From an uncultured Bradyrhizobium sp. (GTDB lineage Bacteria > Pseudomonadota > Alphaproteobacteria > Rhizobiales > Xanthobacteraceae): 64,000 nucleotides of DNA. Within the stretch, counting starts at the first letter, position 1; the number at the start of each line of letters is the position of its first letter. Under the pieces are notes generated by a model. It saw only the letters and a program-made list of their open reading frames with translations. It was not told the DNA's origin and made no database searches. Shown piece by piece: positions 46,700 through 53,354 of the stretch. The DNA is taken from positions 248,001 to 312,000 of the forward strand of contig NZ_CANSMR010000001.1 of NCBI RefSeq assembly GCF_947648125.1. Direction: 5' to 3'. Both the position numbers and the translations under genes were made by a program.

Positions 46700-46921
46700 A
46701 CATGGTCTCGGCTGACCGCGAGTTCGCCTCGCTGGGTATGAGCTCTACCGTTTCGGCGGGAACGAGTTGGTCGGCGATGGCGCCGAATCGAGGATCACCG
46801 ATTTCTTCGCGAAGCTCTTCCGACTGCACCGCGCGGGGGCGCTGACGGTGCCCTCGACCGAAGGCAAGAAATACCGCTTGAATGTCGGAAAATCAGACAT
46901 TATATTGGCTACGGGTCCTAG
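46700..46921 (+). pseudogene. C-terminal remnant of an unidentified, nuclease-like protein
   Basis: ADREFASLG, then after a one-base shift YELYRFGGNELVGDGAESR and ITDFFAKLFRLH. The pattern of a strand 'G-Y-x-V/L-Y-R-F' followed by a helix resembles the end of restriction-endonuclease-fold domains. It ends at TAG 46919. Assignment is weak. Confidence 0.35.
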
Positions 46922-46933
46922 ATAGACACAACG

Positions 46934-47278
46934 ATGGTAACCGTTACACTCGCGCCTCCGCCCGTCAAGATTGCGCCGTTTCCCTTGGCCGCCGTCGAGG
47001 CAAAACTGCGCGATGAGTTGGTTGAGGCCGTCAAGATTGAGGCTTCGATTAGAGGCTTGGCCCTGCCGGCGGCACCGGCAGATATCGCCAAAGCATCCGT
47101 TCACGTGGACTCGTTGGTGGTCGTTTCAATCCTATGCGCAGTTGAACCGATTGTCGGGTTTGAGCTGCCTGAAAGCGTTGTCCGGGCAGGCGGATACACT
47201 TCAGTCGACAGCGCACTCGGCCAGCTACTACCCCGTTTGGAGAAAGAGTGGACGAAGAAGAAAGGAACGAAGTCATGA
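46934..47278 (+). CDS. small ACP-like protein
   Basis: A 114-residue protein. Residues 55-100 (VHVDSLVVVSILCAVEPIVG, FELPESVVRAGGYTSVDSAL) have the pattern of an acyl-carrier protein: the DSL motif with Ser60 as possible phosphopantetheine site, an acidic turn and a final helix. The first 30 residues are Pro/Ala-rich. It overlaps the XRE regulator start (ATGA), making it the first gene of the module. Whether it is pantetheinylated is unknown. Confidence 0.7.
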   Translation: MVTVTLAPPPVKIAPFPLAAVEAKLRDELVEAVKIEASIRGLALPAAPADIAKASVHVDSLVVVSILCAVEPIVGFELPESVVRAGGYTSVDSALGQLLPRLEKEWTKKKGTKS

Positions 47279-47646
47279 CCGAGCTCGCAGTTCATCAAGA
47301 CAACGATGACGAAGCGCGCCGACTCTTGGGCGATCGGTTACGTGAAGCGCGCAAGTATCTCGGTCTTAAGCAGGAAGAAGTCGCAAGCTATTTAAAAATC
47401 CCACGAACGGCGCTCACGGATATCGAAAACGGTCAGCGCCGCGTCGAGGCGATCGAACTCGCCCGGCTTGCTAAGCTGTACCGTCAGCCGGTGGGCTATT
47501 TCACCGGGGAGGACGCTGCAGCGAGCCTGCCAATCGATGTGGCCCACCTGGCGCGCAAGGCGGCCGACTTATCGGAGCAGGACCGCACCGAGCTCGGGCG
47601 TTTCGCCGAATACCTGCGCGCACGCTCGCGCGCCGCGCAAGGCTGA
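47275..47646 (+). CDS. XRE-family HTH regulator
   Basis: A 123-residue protein with a Cro/CI HTH at about residues 20-75 (LREARKYLGLKQEEVASYLK, IPRTALTDIENGQRR) and a helical tail. It precedes an ImmA/IrrE peptidase by three bases. In known pairs (ImmR-ImmA) the peptidase cleaves the regulator on a damage or phage signal. It likely represses this operon. Confidence 0.9.
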   Translation: MTELAVHQDNDDEARRLLGDRLREARKYLGLKQEEVASYLKIPRTALTDIENGQRRVEAIELARLAKLYRQPVGYFTGEDAAASLPIDVAHLARKAADLSEQDRTELGRFAEYLRARSRAAQG

Positions 47647-47649
47647 TCG

Positions 47650-48663
47650 ATGGTGGCCGCGGATTATCCGAGCGCGGTACGTGCCGGCACGATGGCCGCG
47701 GCCCGGCTACATCAGCAACTTGACCTGCGTAAGCAGATCGAGGCGGCCGGCGGCAACGTCGATGTCTTCGCGGCCATCCATGCCTTAAATTTGCCCCTGC
47801 TCGTGCGGCCCCTGCAAGGACTCCTTGGTGCCTATCTGAGCGAACCTGAGCCCGGCGTCCTCGTTACGACGCAGCGTCCGATGAGCATTCAACGGTTCAC
47901 GGCGGCTCATGAGCTCGGTCACTTCCGGCTACAGCATCAGCCCAGTCTCGATGACGAAAGCATTCTGCGACGGATGCTGCTGCAGGCGCAGCCGACGGGC
48001 GACTTTCAGGAGGTTGAGGCCGACGCATTCGCGGTCGAGTTCATGATGCCGCGCTGGCTCGTCGCTTGGCATGCGGCCCGTCAGGGCTGGACCGCTCCCA
48101 ACTTTCGGCGACCGAGTGCAGTCTATCAGCTCTCGTTGCGGATCGGCGCGAGTTATGAGGCGACTTGCTGGACGCTCGCCCGCCACAGATTCATCCAAGC
48201 GGCGCAGGCCCGGGAGCTTCTTCAGACTCAACCGCGTGAGATGAAAGTCGCCCTGCTTGAGGCGTATCAGCCGCAAGACTACCGCGGCGACGTCTGGCTG
48301 CTCACCGAGCGCGACGCAGGAGCGCGCATCGATGGGAGCCGCAACGATCTGTTTGTTCTCAGGCTCGAAGAACACAGCGGCGGAGGCTATCTCTGGGACA
48401 TCGATCAGCTCAAGGAGAGCGGTTTCGCCATTGTTCGCGATGACCTGCAGGCGATTGACGCCGACGGCGTCGGCGGGCCTGTCATCAGGCGCGTGACGGC
48501 GGCGCCACCGGACACCTATCGCGGACGGCTCGCGATCGACGAACGTCGACCATGGGATCCTGATCCGCCGCTTGCCACCCTTGCCATGGACATCGATCTC
48601 ACCGGTCCTGAGCAAGAGGGGCTTTCGCGCGCCGAACGGCGGAGGCTGCTTGAGGCGGCATGA
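47650..48663 (+). CDS. ImmA/IrrE metallopeptidase with C-terminal chagasin-like domain
   Basis: A 337-residue protein. Zinc motif HELGH (H87-H91) with a later ligand candidate in EVEADAFAVEFMMP marks the ImmA/IrrE domain (about 20-190). Residues 213-318 look like a chagasin/I42 cysteine-protease inhibitor: SGGGYLW (243-249) for NPTTGYxW, DGVGG (272-276) for the GxGG loop, and RRPW (299-302) for the RPW loop. The next gene is a papain-family protease, overlapping by ATGA. So inhibitor and target enzyme may be made together. The inhibitor call rests on motif spacing, not on a search. Confidence 0.85.
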   Translation: MVAADYPSAVRAGTMAAARLHQQLDLRKQIEAAGGNVDVFAAIHALNLPLLVRPLQGLLGAYLSEPEPGVLVTTQRPMSIQRFTAAHELGHFRLQHQPSLDDESILRRMLLQAQPTGDFQEVEADAFAVEFMMPRWLVAWHAARQGWTAPNFRRPSAVYQLSLRIGASYEATCWTLARHRFIQAAQARELLQTQPREMKVALLEAYQPQDYRGDVWLLTERDAGARIDGSRNDLFVLRLEEHSGGGYLWDIDQLKESGFAIVRDDLQAIDADGVGGPVIRRVTAAPPDTYRGRLAIDERRPWDPDPPLATLAMDIDLTGPEQEGLSRAERRRLLEAA

Positions 48664-49346
48664 GCGACATTACGATTTCGGTCGATCTGCGGGCTTCTTT
48701 CGGCGCTGCCCGCAATCAAGGGGCACGCCCTACCTGCCTTGCCTTCGCGGCGAGCGATGCACACGCCGCTCTACGTGAGGGCTGGGTACCGTTGTCCTGC
48801 GAATATGCCTTCTATCAGGCGCAACGGCGCGCCGGCCGAATGCCGAACACCGGCGCAGTCCTGTCCTCAATGCTGGAGGCGCTCCGCAAGGATGGGCAAC
48901 CCGAAGAGAGCGGCTGGCCCTATCTATCGGCAACACCCGCAGATGCAGCGTCATGGGCGCCGCCGCGCGAGGTCGGCAAGCTGTTCGGCCGCAACGGCGC
49001 GATCGCTACACACTCGATCGATCGCGTCATCCGGGAATTAGATCAGGGGCGCCCGGTGATCGTCCTCACGATGCTGTCGCGCGCCTTCTATCAGCGCACT
49101 CCACAAGGTGTCGTCGATCCAGCGCCCGGCGAGCAACCCGAGCCGGACCGACGCCATGCCGTCATCGCCGTCGGCCACGGTAAGGTCGACGGCCAGCGCG
49201 CCGTCTTGGTGCGCAACAGTTGGGGGCCGAGTTGGGGCGATGCCGGCTACGGCTGGCTTACGGAGCGGTTCCTTGGCACACGCATCTATGCGGCCGCAAC
49301 CTTGTTGGAGGAGGTCGATGTACCTGCCGATCCCATCGCAGCCTGA
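48660..49346 (+). CDS. papain-family (C1) cysteine protease, cytosolic
   Basis: A 228-residue protein with a full papain active site: Gln20 and Cys26 in NQGARPTCLAFA, His166 in RRHAVIAVGHG and Asn186 in VRNSWGPSWG. There is no signal peptide or long propeptide, so it should act in the cytoplasm and need another form of control. The chagasin-like domain encoded just upstream is a natural candidate. It overlaps its neighbours on both sides (ATGA; 29 bases with the next gene). Confidence 0.9.
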   Translation: MSDITISVDLRASFGAARNQGARPTCLAFAASDAHAALREGWVPLSCEYAFYQAQRRAGRMPNTGAVLSSMLEALRKDGQPEESGWPYLSATPADAASWAPPREVGKLFGRNGAIATHSIDRVIRELDQGRPVIVLTMLSRAFYQRTPQGVVDPAPGEQPEPDRRHAVIAVGHGKVDGQRAVLVRNSWGPSWGDAGYGWLTERFLGTRIYAAATLLEEVDVPADPIAA

Positions 49347-50100
49347 CTGCGCGAGCGCCTGGCGCGAAGCCGTGCGCGCCGTCGATAATCGACCGGGCCA
49401 CTCGGCCTATAATGTGATCATCGATATTGCAGATCCGATCGCCAATGCAACGTCGGCGGATACCCGAGTCGCGGTCGTTGACGAGTTCCTGTCTGACTGC
49501 GACAAGTCGGTGGAGACGGTGGCGAACACCATTTTTCCAGCAGGCCTTTATCGCCGCTTTGGCGCACCTGCCTTCTTCGATATTTTCCGCGACAATGTTC
49601 TGAAGAAGGTTCGGCGAAGCGAACGCTGGTCCGGTTACTATTTCGAGCGCATGATCCAATATCCGGTGGCCGAGGGTGACGCGCCCAATCAGCTCTGGGA
49701 TATCGTAGAACGCCTGAAAAACGAGGATGTGCGGGCCCTCAACAAGTTCGAGCTGTCGCTGTTCGATCCGGTCAGGGATGTCGATAATTCGCCTTATGGC
49801 GGACAGTGCCTCAGTTTCATGAGCTTCAAGGTCATACCTGGCACGGAAAAGACGCTGACCCTGACGGCGATGTATCGCAATCACTTCTACATCGAAAAGC
49901 TGCTGGGCAACCTGATCGGCCTTGGTCGCCTAATGGACTTTGTCGCTCACGAGGCGGGCCTCAAGGTCGGCGCGCTCACCGTCATTTCCACCCATGCCGA
50001 AATCGACCAGCCCCGCCGCAACGGAAAGCCTGCCAGCCGGTCCGACATTACTGCGATGATCGCAAAGTTCGATCAGGCGGCAGCCCCTCTCGCGGCTTGA
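49318..50100 (+). CDS. thymidylate-synthase-like protein
   Basis: A 260-residue protein with a TS-like core: TIFPAGLYRR near 71-80, candidate nucleophile Cys164 in GGQCLSFMSFKV, Arg187 in TAMYRNHFY, Asn198 in LLGNLIGL and His226 in ISTHAEID. The Asp of the RSCD motif of ThyA reads Phe, so dUMP methylation is uncertain; it may handle another pyrimidine nucleotide. The start at 49318 follows GGAGGAGG inside the end of the protease gene. Ends 28 bases into the convergent UDG-like gene. Confidence 0.8.
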   Translation: MYLPIPSQPDCASAWREAVRAVDNRPGHSAYNVIIDIADPIANATSADTRVAVVDEFLSDCDKSVETVANTIFPAGLYRRFGAPAFFDIFRDNVLKKVRRSERWSGYYFERMIQYPVAEGDAPNQLWDIVERLKNEDVRALNKFELSLFDPVRDVDNSPYGGQCLSFMSFKVIPGTEKTLTLTAMYRNHFYIEKLLGNLIGLGRLMDFVAHEAGLKVGALTVISTHAEIDQPRRNGKPASRSDITAMIAKFDQAAAPLAA

Positions 50101-50780
50101 GTGCCGGAGAAGGGAAGCTCGAGCGTCTGTCGGTCGTCATCGTCGGCTGCGAGACCGTAGATGTGATTGACGCCCGAGATGAACCCGGCTTGGCCACCGT
50201 AACTTGGATGGCGGACGATCTCGACCGTTATATCGAGGCCGTTTAGCGCCATACCGGCATCGCGGCCGATTGCCACGATCCGGCGGGGCTTGATCATCGC
50301 AACGAGAGCCATGAGCAATGGCCACGTGGCTTCGCGCTCGACCCTTGTGTGGCAGCGATTCGAGAAGGGGTCATCCGCCTCATGCGGATGAAGAGGAAAT
50401 ATATTCCACAACACTGCGGGCTCGCCGATTCGAGTGAGCACGCTCCAGACGATGGCGGCGGTCCGCTCCGCGACCGCCGGACCTCTTGTCGCGCGATCCA
50501 GCGCTATGCCGCCCATCAGCGCCGCCGCCTGGCCCAAATGGACCTCGTCCGTCAGCGGCACGCCTGTTCTGCGGCCGCCGCGATAGCCCAGATCGCGGGC
50601 GATCCAGATCGTGTCGACATGCGCGGTTAGGGCTGCGTCCAGGCAGCGCACAAGATTCCGCCGCCGGACGCGCGCCGCATCTGCTCGATCATAAGTCGCA
50701 CAACAATCGGCATAAGGGTTGAACACCGAAGGCAGGTGGGTTTCGGCGAGGGCTTGGGTAAAGGACTTCGGCGTTTTCAA
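50073..50780 (-). CDS. uracil-DNA-glycosylase superfamily-like protein
   Basis: A 235-residue protein with the order of UDG/TDG motifs: FNPYADCCATYD near 20-31, DLGYRGGRRTGVPLTDE near 63-79, LWNIFPLHPHE near 122-132, and a C-terminal HPSYGGQAGF segment. The TTG start at 50780 overlaps the MazG stop (TTGA). Base specificity is unclear. Coupled to a MazG-like gene and convergent with a TS-like gene, it suggests action on unusual pyrimidines. Confidence 0.75.
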   Translation of the reverse strand: MKTPKSFTQALAETHLPSVFNPYADCCATYDRADAARVRRRNLVRCLDAALTAHVDTIWIARDLGYRGGRRTGVPLTDEVHLGQAAALMGGIALDRATRGPAVAERTAAIVWSVLTRIGEPAVLWNIFPLHPHEADDPFSNRCHTRVEREATWPLLMALVAMIKPRRIVAIGRDAGMALNGLDITVEIVRHPSYGGQAGFISGVNHIYGLAADDDDRQTLELPFSGTQAARGAAA

Positions 50781-51952
50781 GGTAGTGTCTCGATTGTCAA
50801 ACGACGGTTATTCGTATCGATGTGGAGACGTCCGCGCCGATGCTCGCGCAGAAAGCGGAAAGCGGCATAGCCCTGCAAGATCGCCTCTTCCCAAAGCCAC
50901 AACGGAATTTGCTCCGCCTCATACCCGGCGACGAACTGGCGGACATGCTTGAGCATGTCGAACGGCAACTCACCAACTCTAACGTCAGCGATGAAATTCA
51001 GGGCCACGGCTTGCCCAAATATCCATGTCGCCACGCCTTCTTCGATCAGCGTGGCGCGGGCTCCATCCTGTGCCTCGTCGATCTTGGGATCGCTCTTGCG
51101 CTTGAGTCGGAAAAGACTGCGGATGACAGGTGACCAAGTCAAGACCGCCACGTAGGCGTAGTGAAAAACGTCGTGAAAGCGGTAGTCATCGGCCGTCATG
51201 GCGTTGTCGGTCAGACGATCGCCAATGTTCAGGCCGTTGCAGCGCTGAAACACGTAGGTCTGGCCGCGAACTTTGCGTTCGAACACGTCGACGTAGAGGT
51301 CGCGGGGCAACTGCTCCTCAGCTTCCGCGGACTCGTCAAGCGGCGCCGGGTAGATACGTTCGCGAGGCCAGCGATCGAAGATCTTGCTCAGATTCTTGAC
51401 CGCCGCCGCCTCAAGCGTCACGCCCGCCTCGTTCGCGGCCTGAATCACAGTTCTCATGATCGCAACCAGGCGGCCCGCCAAAGCTGCTTGGTTATTGGTC
51501 AGGCGGCCGGCCTCGTGGTCGGTCATCAGTAGGCCGACTTCGCCCGCGAGCTGGAGCAGCGTCTTCTCGAACGCCAGCGTCGGCTCCGATCGTCGAGTCA
51601 TTATCGCGGGTTGGAGGGAAGCGAATGAAAGTAGGTCATCAGGCGCACGCTGCCAGTCCGCATATCCTCGATTTAGATTTCCTGCGATATCGCCGAGGGA
51701 CAGCCCGCCACGCGCGGCAACCGCCGTGAGATACCAAAGTACGTCGCCCAATTCCTCGACGACGGCACCAGCGTAGCCGAGATACGAGGCTCGATCTCGC
51801 TGCTTCTTTTTGACCTCGCTGAGCAGGCTGCCGGTTTCGCCAAACAGGCCGAGCAGCGGAAACGTGAGCGAACCGCTGTCGCTTCGCTGATCGGTGGTCA
51901 ACGCCTGCGAGACATAGTCCTGAATGCTGAGCGGGGTGAACTCGTCCGTCAC
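50777..51952 (-). CDS. MazG-like nucleotide pyrophosphohydrolase with C-terminal extension
   Basis: A 391-residue protein. The all-alpha NTP-PPase signature is present: GLFGETGSLLSE with EELGDVLWYL about 25 residues later, giving the ExxxxxxE...ExxD metal set. A second helical region (FEKTLLQLAGEVGLLMTDHE) looks like a degenerate repeat. The last 190 residues (FHDVFHYAYVAVLTW, IEEGVATWIFGQAVALNF) are unassigned. It would cleave NTPs or modified dNTPs to monophosphates. First gene of the leftward arm of the module. Confidence 0.85.
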   Translation of the reverse strand: MTDEFTPLSIQDYVSQALTTDQRSDSGSLTFPLLGLFGETGSLLSEVKKKQRDRASYLGYAGAVVEELGDVLWYLTAVAARGGLSLGDIAGNLNRGYADWQRAPDDLLSFASLQPAIMTRRSEPTLAFEKTLLQLAGEVGLLMTDHEAGRLTNNQAALAGRLVAIMRTVIQAANEAGVTLEAAAVKNLSKIFDRWPRERIYPAPLDESAEAEEQLPRDLYVDVFERKVRGQTYVFQRCNGLNIGDRLTDNAMTADDYRFHDVFHYAYVAVLTWSPVIRSLFRLKRKSDPKIDEAQDGARATLIEEGVATWIFGQAVALNFIADVRVGELPFDMLKHVRQFVAGYEAEQIPLWLWEEAILQGYAAFRFLREHRRGRLHIDTNNRRLTIETLP

Positions 51953-52408: not shown

Positions 52409-53354
52409 GTGATCATACCTCTCCGTTGCGTCGGAATCGACGTCTCCAAACAATATCTTGATGTGTTCGATGAAGCCGTCGGTGCGTCCGAGCGCATCGC
52501 CAACGCGCCACAGGCCATTACGCAGCTGGTGGCGCGTTGGCGATGCGCTGCGCTGGTCGTCTTTGAGGCCACGGGTGTCTATGACCTCGAGCTTCGCCAG
52601 GCTCTGCGTCAGGCCGGCATCCGCTTTGCCCGGATCAATCCGGCCCGTGCCCGCGACTTTGCCCGCGCCAGCGGCCAGCTCGCCAAGACCGATCCGATCG
52701 ACGCGCGGATGCTGGCGGCCTTTGCGCGCGCTATGAAGCCCGCCACCGATCAGGCCGCCACACCCGCCCGCGACGCCTTGGCGAGGTTGGCAAAACGGCG
52801 CGATCAACTGGTCCACATGCGAGCCCAGGAGAAGAACCGCCGCAGCGAAGCCGATGACCGCGCCATGGCCGAACGCATCACTCGCCTCATCGAGGTCCTC
52901 GATCACGAGATTACCGCGATCGAGGCCGAGATCAGCGTACTCATCAAAGCCGAGCCGGCGCTTGCTGACGATGCGCAATTGATGCGCTCCCTGCCCGGCG
53001 TGGGACCCGTCGCCTGCATGCAGCTCATCACCCAAATGCCGGAGCTCGGCTATGTCGGGCCGAAGGAGGTGGCGGCTCTTGCCGGCCTGGCTCCCATCAA
53101 CGTCGATAGTGGTGTTTACCGTGGCAAGCGCAAGATCAGCGGCGGCCGAAAGCGCGTCCGTGACGCCCTCTACATGGCCGCCCTCAACGCTGTTCGCCGC
53201 GCCGGCACCTTCAAAGTCTTCTACGAAAGGCTGCGAAAGGCCGGCAAACCCGCCAAACTCGCCCTCATTGCCTTCGCTAGCTAGAAAGCTGCTAGCAATC
53301 CTCAACGCAATGATGCGCGATCGCAAACCCTACCTCCCGGCACAATCAACATAA
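52409..53354 (+). pseudogene. IS110-family transposase, C-terminal frameshift
   Basis: DEDD-type transposase: GIDVSKQYLDVFDE, LVVFEATGVYDLEL, LAKTDPIDARMLA, and the C-terminal SLPGVGPVACMQLI and YRGKRKISGGRKRVR. The frame stops at 53284, after AFAS. A CTAG duplication (GCTAGCTAGAAAG) shifts it; the normal ending ARKLLAILNAMMRDRKPY continues in another frame to 53354. Element ends not mapped. Confidence 0.85.

Follow-up and report, generated by a model that had tools for sequence, protein, structure and literature searches.

An ImmA/IrrE peptidase with a chagasin-like domain is encoded beside a papain-family protease in a putative nucleotide-modification conflict operon

How is a cytosolic papain-type protease kept safe within a bacterial cell, and what would such an enzyme do among genes for nucleotide chemistry? 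The safe-keeping of these proteases is rarely visible from the genome. C1 papain peptidases usually carry a signal peptide and a propeptide, although neither is required. In the window (the whole stretch of 64,000 nucleotides analysed here, from an uncultured Bradyrhizobium sp.), an inhibitor domain and a C1 protease form one genetic unit within a cluster of seven genes, in which a five-gene core is followed by two convergent genes and which extends to position 51952. The features of this cluster are as follows.

46878..46906, + strand: sigma70-like promoter TTGAAT-17-TATATT (promoter scan, 9/12 consensus positions)
46882-46900, + strand: imperfect inverted repeat ATGTCGGAaaaTCAGACAT, filling the promoter spacer; predicted XRE operator
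46934..47278, + strand: ACP-like protein, with Asp-Ser-Leu at residues 59-61 as predicted phosphopantetheine site
47275..47646, + strand: XRE/HTH repressor (Pfam HTH_31, 4.4e-11)
47650..48663, + strand: ImmA/IrrE (M78) metallopeptidase with a C-terminal chagasin (I42) domain (Pfam M78, 1.8e-8)
48286..48603, + strand: I42 domain, residues 213-318 of the preceding protein, with loops SGGGYLW, GVGG and RRPW
48660..49346, + strand: C1 papain-family protease (Pfam, 2.1e-12; Gln20/Cys26/His166/Asn186)
49318..50100, + strand: thymidylate-synthase (TS)-like enzyme (Cys164, Asn198)
50073..50780, - strand: uracil-DNA-glycosylase (UDG)-like protein, convergent (Pfam UDG 0.0044, under the cut-off)
50777..51952, - strand: MazG nucleotide pyrophosphohydrolase with MazG_C, convergent (Pfam MazG_C 8.5e-78, MazG 1.1e-5)

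The initial annotation had described five coupled genes at 46934-50100, and all five open reading frames are present and tightly coupled, with ATGA overlaps at the ACP-like/XRE and M78::I42/C1 junctions and a 29-bp overlap between the C1 and TS-like genes. Its gene set was right for this core and missed the UDG-like and MazG-MazG_C genes, which are conserved along with the core, as well as the predicted promoter and operator at 46878-46906. GC content shows no large anomaly at the locus.

The C-terminal part of the ImmA protein can be assigned firmly to the I42 family by profile comparison. The family profile matches the inhibitors amoebiasin-2 (1.9e-11), amoebiasin-1 (7.5e-6), ICP (8.1e-5) and chagasin (0.026). 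Taken alone, the window protein scores 1.4e-4 and 22.5 bits against Pfam I42, under the cut-off of 27.2, and an archaeal homologue from Haloarcula lies over it at 43.5 bits; family profile and archaeal score together rule out a chance resemblance. The domain had been placed at residues 213-318 on the strength of three loop signatures, which fits the profile match at 214-314, and the chagasin motifs GYxW, GxGG and RPW are all intact in the window. In known complexes, these loops fill the cleft of the C1 protease. Among 31 C1-bearing loci, the BC loop G[YF]xW is kept in all, the DE-loop glycine in 30 and the RPW loop in 27, being altered in the other four. The AlphaFold model of ImmA-I42 has a mean pLDDT of 41.9, too low for judging an Ig-like beta fold. 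This I42 domain is the sole one detected in its own genome, and some family members already bear the NCBI labels 'protease inhibitor I42' and 'C1 family peptidase'.

The neighbouring protease has a complete active site. Its family profile matches C1A allergens and cathepsins (5.1e-15), and the Gln/Cys/His/Asn residues are found in 31/31 C1-bearing loci; the C1A site includes the oxyanion Gln and RNSWG. In the window the open frame begins at the mature catalytic domain, so that a propeptide is absent; the catalytic Cys is residue 26 of 228, and the protein has only two cysteines. The N-terminus, judged by eye, is not hydrophobic and shows no signal peptide, as had been reported. Annotated C1 lengths are 202-241 aa in 12 plasmid loci. 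This is not an ordinary C1 neighbourhood: 39 distant C1 loci (L017-L055, some on short contigs) lack M78, ACP or TS-like profile matches, with only two nearby I42 open frames among them.

The arrangement also recurs outside this genome. An inhibitor fused to ImmA and encoded directly before C1, as first proposed from this one locus, is found in every one of the 31 C1-bearing loci, each with M78 and I42 in one open frame and with an M78 HExxH motif. The order of the five-gene core is kept in 30 of them; ACP is present in 30 and TS-like in all, some copies being partial. Loops and catalytic residues are jointly kept down to 32% ImmA identity, on an archaeal plasmid. In Alphaproteobacteria the loci lie on chromosomes as well as plasmids; one plasmid from Burkholderia and one from a haloarchaeon also carry the unit. 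The core thus recurs in relatives and on plasmids, which rules out a gene order unique to the strain.

These counts depend on how the loci were collected. An initial count of 38 loci left out L060 and L061 (on the same contigs as L010 and L009) and L093 (a lone TS-like gene); L107 was added later, giving 31 loci with C1 and eight without. The set includes near relatives (ImmA and C1 being 92-96% alike among the window, L009, L010 and L059), and 'present' means a profile match, broken copies included: TS lies in two open frames in L071 and L078, MazG in two frames in L082, and the UDG of L087 is broken into two parts separated by about 1.4 kb. L012 holds 40 residues of TS, with no UDG or MazG in its remaining 6 kb, and L013 ends inside TS. 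The ACP profile missed L086, at a contig start, and five of the seven C1-less loci of the 38-locus count, of which L089 and L092 are annotated as acyl carrier protein and L090, L094 and L095 have open frames read by eye. The plasmid survey comprised 16 records, and the regions of 13 were analysed.

At the head of the operon, an HTH repressor stands with an M78 peptidase bearing HExxH, as in an XRE/ImmA derepression module. The palindrome within the promoter is the predicted XRE operator. The promoter match is weak alone, because the scan of the region gave four such sites where 1.7 are expected. The palindrome could be aligned in 13 loci, 51-62 bases upstream of the ACP gene, and its core TGTCNGANNNTCNGACA is exact in nine, with one mismatch in three and two mismatches in one; the extended form has a single exact match in the whole genome. 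Palindromes before C1-less operons are individually weak, with equally good repeats in 87/500 (L090), 3/500 (L092), 49/500 (L094) and 16/500 (L095) shuffles; in L092 the longest palindrome is a different, overlapping repeat.

The inhibitor-protease unit recognized by the initial annotation is there, but its account overlooked the nucleotide-modification half of the system, with TS-like, MazG_C, UDG or 5-hmdU kinase (HMUDK), phosphopantetheinyl transferase (PPTase) and dCTP deaminase. Across the loci, the nucleotide genes comprise MazG_C, UDG, HMUDK, dCTP deaminase, dTMP kinase, TS paralogues and PPTases. The window ACP-like protein has no Pfam match and an NCBIfam score of only 0.08; its family profile matches solved ACPs (5.3e-4), and a Streptomyces homologue is over the cut-off for PP-binding (9.1e-8). 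Residues D59, S60 and L61 are invariant in 10 alignment rows, and Asp-Ser is kept in Haloarcula, Streptomyces, cyanobacteria and L107. Carrier function is doubtful in L094 and L095, the two Rhizobiaceae C1-less operons, because Asn-Ser replaces it there. PPTase genes adjoin 7/31 C1-bearing loci. The TS-like protein scores only 0.26 against Pfam TS and 1.2e-10 against NCBIfam TIGR03283, far under that model's cut-off, and its profile found no TS match by sequence among solved structures, the likeness being by fold only. It has the fold, catalytic Cys and pyrimidine-binding Asn characteristic of the TS superfamily, the latter two being Cys164 and Asn198. UDG-like homologues are over the Pfam cut-off in L070 (6.6e-10) and L073 (8.8e-8), that of L068 has no Pfam match, and the family profile is weak against solved structures (0.1). 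UDG occurs in 23/38 loci and 5-hmdU kinase in 13/38, never both in one locus, an alternation that hints at chemistry on uracil or hydroxymethyluracil.

We consider it probable, if far from certain, that the locus is a mobile nucleotide-modification conflict system, presumably directed against phage and controlled by XRE and ImmA, that has gained a 'split zymogen'. XRE would repress the operon by binding the palindrome inside the promoter. A stress signal, possibly ssDNA by analogy with PprI/IrrE, for which repressor cleavage triggered by ssDNA is described in PMC10904395, would lead M78 to cleave XRE and induce the operon. The TS-like enzyme, the phosphopantetheinylated carrier and MazG_C, with a 5-hmdU-DNA-kinase-like or UDG-like enzyme, would then make, spend or remove a modified pyrimidine nucleotide or base. 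In the C1 branch, the chagasin domain of ImmA would keep the propeptide-less protease inactive, as a zymogen whose two halves are separate, co-translated proteins, until ImmA is engaged, destroyed or outnumbered and C1 is freed to act on a target. A tentative extension, which we regard as possible, is a two-protease immune switch in which the derepressing metallopeptidase carries the inhibitor of the next gene's cysteine protease while carrier and TS-like enzyme make the modified nucleotide; with the inhibitor built into the derepressing peptidase, operon induction and arming of the effector protease would be one event.

Is an immune role warranted? A regulated metabolic or plasmid-maintenance operon, serving for example nucleotide salvage or hygiene under SOS-like control, is a rather unlikely alternative. 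UDG, MazG and dCTP deaminase also serve house-cleaning, scans of two upstream neighbours in the window show metabolic enzymes, one an alcohol dehydrogenase and the other a thioesterase, and residence on plasmids could mean maintenance. However, the distribution is patchy (6/197 relatives and 6/385 in the class, the window's genome counted in both), a full thymidylate synthase is encoded elsewhere in the genome, and the regulators resemble CapH and CapP. In PADLOC, XRE matches RmrA (7.8e-15) and capH (9.5e-12) and ImmA matches capP (3.8e-14); against the PDB, M78 matches an IrrE orthologue (1.1e-4) and CapP (0.09). The window ACP, C1, TS, UDG and MazG have no PADLOC match. Of 10 neighbour proteins scanned, five have PADLOC matches (Shedu, E1-E2, caspase, DUF499, LmuB) and five none, and an MPP-TS accessory protein in L079 scores 57 bits against NCBIfam DS9_1_antiphage, well under the cut-off of 420. 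A phage origin was rejected, there being no match to the system in viral contigs or phage records; this absence weighs neither for nor against the defence reading.

Sister operons lacking both C1 and I42 offer a natural with/without comparison. Eight such operons (ACP-like, XRE, ImmA, TS-like, HMUDK, MazG_C), in Streptomyces, cyanobacteria and Alphaproteobacteria, have the same core genes and order as the C1-bearing loci; unlike the window, they have no C1 and an ImmA without I42. The nucleotide-modification core therefore exists also without the inhibitor-protease pair. I42 is present in 31/31 loci with C1 and 0/8 without, as an I42-C1 pairing predicts (Fisher p=7.9e-8 on 38 loci, relatedness ignored). 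The collection is biased towards joint occurrence, since ImmA or C1 served as query for most of the C1 loci; all eight C1-less operons answer to TS-like queries. In the least biased sample, a TS-like query on plasmids, 16 of 22 records match both the ImmA::I42 and the C1 query, five are C1-less operons and one is a lone TS-like gene. The 31-versus-8 association may represent one event, because on the M78 tree a single branch accounts for the C1/I42 split, with weak support (93/45) and long branches; the C1-plus-UDG label requires five changes on the M78 tree and three on the TS tree.

This comparison also bears on the direction of control. I42 could be a docking or sensor domain to which C1, or a cysteine protease from an invader, binds and thereby gates XRE cleavage by ImmA, so that the protease lies upstream of the regulator. 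I42 does follow the M78 core where C1-less relatives have a different C-terminal stretch, with no remote homology detected between the two (hhalign probability 1.4 and 0.2), and the co-conservation of C1 and I42 fits either direction; we nevertheless judge this unlikely, inhibition being the simplest explanation for chagasin loops kept in nearly all loci. Some papain folds have transferase activity, and the near-constant ACP and TS-like genes and nearby PPTases might suggest that C1 passes an acyl or aminoacyl group from ACP to a nucleotide from the TS-like enzyme, with I42 as tether or regulator, but this is quite improbable given eight loci with the TS-like core and ACP-like gene and no C1, the complete C1A active site and an I42 partner that points to a peptidase cleft.

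How does the inhibitor-protease reading place the locus among known systems? The nucleotide-modification systems of DefensePredictor (PMC13092281) share several of its enzymes: in the sections available, TS, 5-hmdU kinase and metallophosphatase occur in validated systems, MazG and MazG-C systems are predicted, UDG is named in the Fig. 6F legend, and Burroughs et al. 2015 is cited on nucleotide-modification defence systems. C1 protease, I42 and ACP, all present in the window, receive no mention in those sections. The system described here ties carrier-protein chemistry to these poorly understood conflict systems.

The likeness to chagasin/ICP (MEROPS I42; amoebiasin-2, Trypanosoma cruzi chagasin) comprises a whole-domain profile match together with the loop motifs. 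To our knowledge, however, the known inhibitors are stand-alone proteins, whereas here I42 is fused to a metallopeptidase, and no ImmA::I42 and C1 layout is described among the literature matches listed. Two Methylococcales loci (L044 and L053) have an I42 open frame directly upstream of C1 (9.7e-17 and 3.2e-16), with the inhibitor before the protease as in the window, but the I42 is unfused to M78, the C1 match starts about 70-85 residues inside the open frame, and the profiles find no ACP, M78 or TS-like match. CapH-CapP is the HTH and M78 regulator pair of CBASS, and no cyclic-nucleotide synthase or CBASS effector was found among eight window proteins scanned. As in CapH-CapP and PprI/IrrE-DdrO, an XRE protein adjoins an M78 peptidase at the operon head; in contrast to both, the peptidase here carries a C-terminal chagasin domain and is followed by genes for a C1 protease and for nucleotide enzymes.

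The five ORFs at 46934-50100 are present in the window as the initial annotation described them, an observation that we confirm and extend here. ATGA overlaps join the ACP and XRE ORFs and the ImmA and C1 ORFs, and the cluster reads like a single transcript. Scans of the window proteins against Pfam, PADLOC and NCBIfam named HTH, M78 and C1 domains and, weakly, I42 and thymidylate synthase (TS); on the opposite strand they named a UDG-like protein (weak) and a MazG-MazG_C protein. An IS110-family transposase (52409-53284) lies directly outside the system. The host genome measures 8.57 Mb, and the closest named homologues belong to Bradyrhizobium.

The layout is conserved beyond this strain. 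A genome scan with the C1 query returned 47 loci; the system is present in eight of these, L009-L016, at a C1 identity of at least 57%. The ImmA protein was found in 6/197 genomes of relatives, 6/385 of a class sample and 2/398 of a phylum sample, each count including the window's own genome, and 16 of 72,556 plasmid records match, Haloarcula and Burkholderia among them (11 of the 16 typed conjugative). The 13 annotated regions fetched share one gene order: the ACP-like gene, annotated as a small "hypothetical", then XRE, ImmA and C1, and finally the TS-like gene, also annotated "hypothetical" and consisting of two ORFs in L071 and L078. By profile matrix there are 31 non-duplicate C1-bearing loci: M78 and I42 share one ORF in all of them, and core order is kept in 30, the exception (L086, at a contig start) having a TS piece ahead of XRE and no ACP match. 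TS, UDG or MazG genes are split or shortened in some copies (L071, L078, L082, L087, L012), suggesting decay or assembly errors. The C1 form occurs twice in genome G055 (L058, L059), and genome G380 has it together with a C1-less form (L083, L107).

The chagasin identity of the ImmA C-terminal domain is upheld by family profiles. Taken alone, the window protein scores under the Pfam cut-off for I42, as does its L071 homologue. The full ImmA-I42 family profile matches IrrE with its N-terminal part and amoebiasin-2 with residues 214-314 (3.9e-8). An I42-only profile built from 14 diverse members reached amoebiasin-2 at 1.9e-11, also matching amoebiasin-1 and ICPs, with chagasin itself at 0.026; its ten matches include one unrelated chain (complex I subunit, 0.014). 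The Haloarcula homologue exceeds the Pfam cut-off (M78 6e-14, I42 4.1e-11). The AlphaFold model of ImmA-I42, built with nine close sequences, reached a mean pLDDT of 41.9 and counts as failed, so the fold assignment rests on sequence.

In C1A proteases, a propeptide usually takes part in folding and keeps the enzyme in check. The window C1 begins at the mature domain, with its catalytic Cys at residue 26; across 31 loci this Cys falls between positions 20 and 26 of the domain match, and annotated lengths are 202-241 aa in 12 plasmid loci. Gln/Cys/His/Asn are kept in 31/31 C1 proteins, and the inhibitor loops of the adjoining I42 domain are retained. ImmA and C1 ORFs overlap or abut in 12 of 13 loci checked (gap -4 to +5); the gap is +80 in L075, where the C1 start is probably annotated late. 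The simplest reading is a zymogen divided over two proteins, with a predicted lock on the regulator: the I42 domain on ImmA would restrain the propeptide-less C1. The inhibitor-protease switch proposed in the initial annotation is partly supported, as a plausible and testable model. Two Methylococcales loci (L044:5042-6741; L053:4013-5688) represent an unfused version of the same idea: a chagasin-like ORF of its own immediately precedes a C1 ORF, in which the C1 match starts ~70-85 residues into the frame.

TS-like queries also retrieved same-core operons lacking C1 (three in Streptomyces, two cyanobacterial, two on Rhizobiaceae plasmids and one in G380). Their ImmA proteins retain HExxH. No I42 match was found in the ImmA proteins of these eight operons, whose C-terminus differs and has no detectable relation to I42. 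A 5-hmdU-DNA-kinase helical-domain protein and MazG_C are present in 8/8. On the M78 tree, a single weakly supported branch (93/45) sets apart the seven C1-less loci included in the profile matrix: C1 and I42 were gained or lost jointly, possibly just once. On the TS tree, rows without C1 require two changes because Burkholderia arboris has an isolated TS-like gene (L093:6992-7534). This locus has no ACP, XRE or ImmA match, and the gene lies ~0.65 kb from a convergent gene resembling, by eye, an Rhs repeat protein.

A putative promoter precedes the window operon.

46878-46906: sigma70-like promoter TTGAAT-17-TATATT; an inverted repeat fills the spacer, aligned in 13 loci

The core TGTCNGANNNTCNGACA, allowing up to 2 mismatches, lies no farther than 120 bases from the ACP gene in 22/28 loci tested, and in 22/28 loci at most 4 of 300 shuffles were as good. 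Haloarcula is without such a repeat (5 mismatches; 215/300 shuffles as good). Four C1-less operons, cyanobacterial and Rhizobiaceae, have instead GTAAGA-NNN-TCTTAC 39-41 bases ahead of the gene (by eye; each weak against shuffles). A genome-wide search for the extended motif gave a single match, the one ahead of the window operon.

An anti-phage defence role is suggested circumstantially by genomic context and regulator likeness: the regulators resemble CapH/CapP (PADLOC), and the mobile, patchy occurrence also counts toward defence. Five of ten neighbour proteins scanned had PADLOC matches.

PADLOC matches among neighbours of the system
L074: Shedu and DUF499
L057: E1-E2
L071: caspase
L094 (C1-less): LmuB

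An E1-like gene and a second XRE-M78 pair lie near the C1 system at L057:14036-17705. A metallophosphoesterase-TS fusion protein stands beside the system in L076 (12556-15811), L078 and L079, and a further thymidylate synthase gene adjoins its gene in L076 and L078. In L079 this protein shows a distant relationship to NCBIfam DS9_1_antiphage, which, judging from the name, corresponds to the DS-9A that PMC13092281 validated. The fusion protein and the prediction in that paper that MazG and MazG_C systems are defensive add to the circumstantial case.

Among known systems, the promoter repeat fits a switch in which XRE and ImmA would control their own operon in the manner of PprI-DdrO; there, according to PMC10904395, ssDNA enhances cleavage. 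To our knowledge the plausible inhibitor-protease switch is undescribed, the main doubt on novelty coming from Burroughs et al. 2015, and the system would be a new variant of the nucleotide-modification conflict systems that carries this switch.
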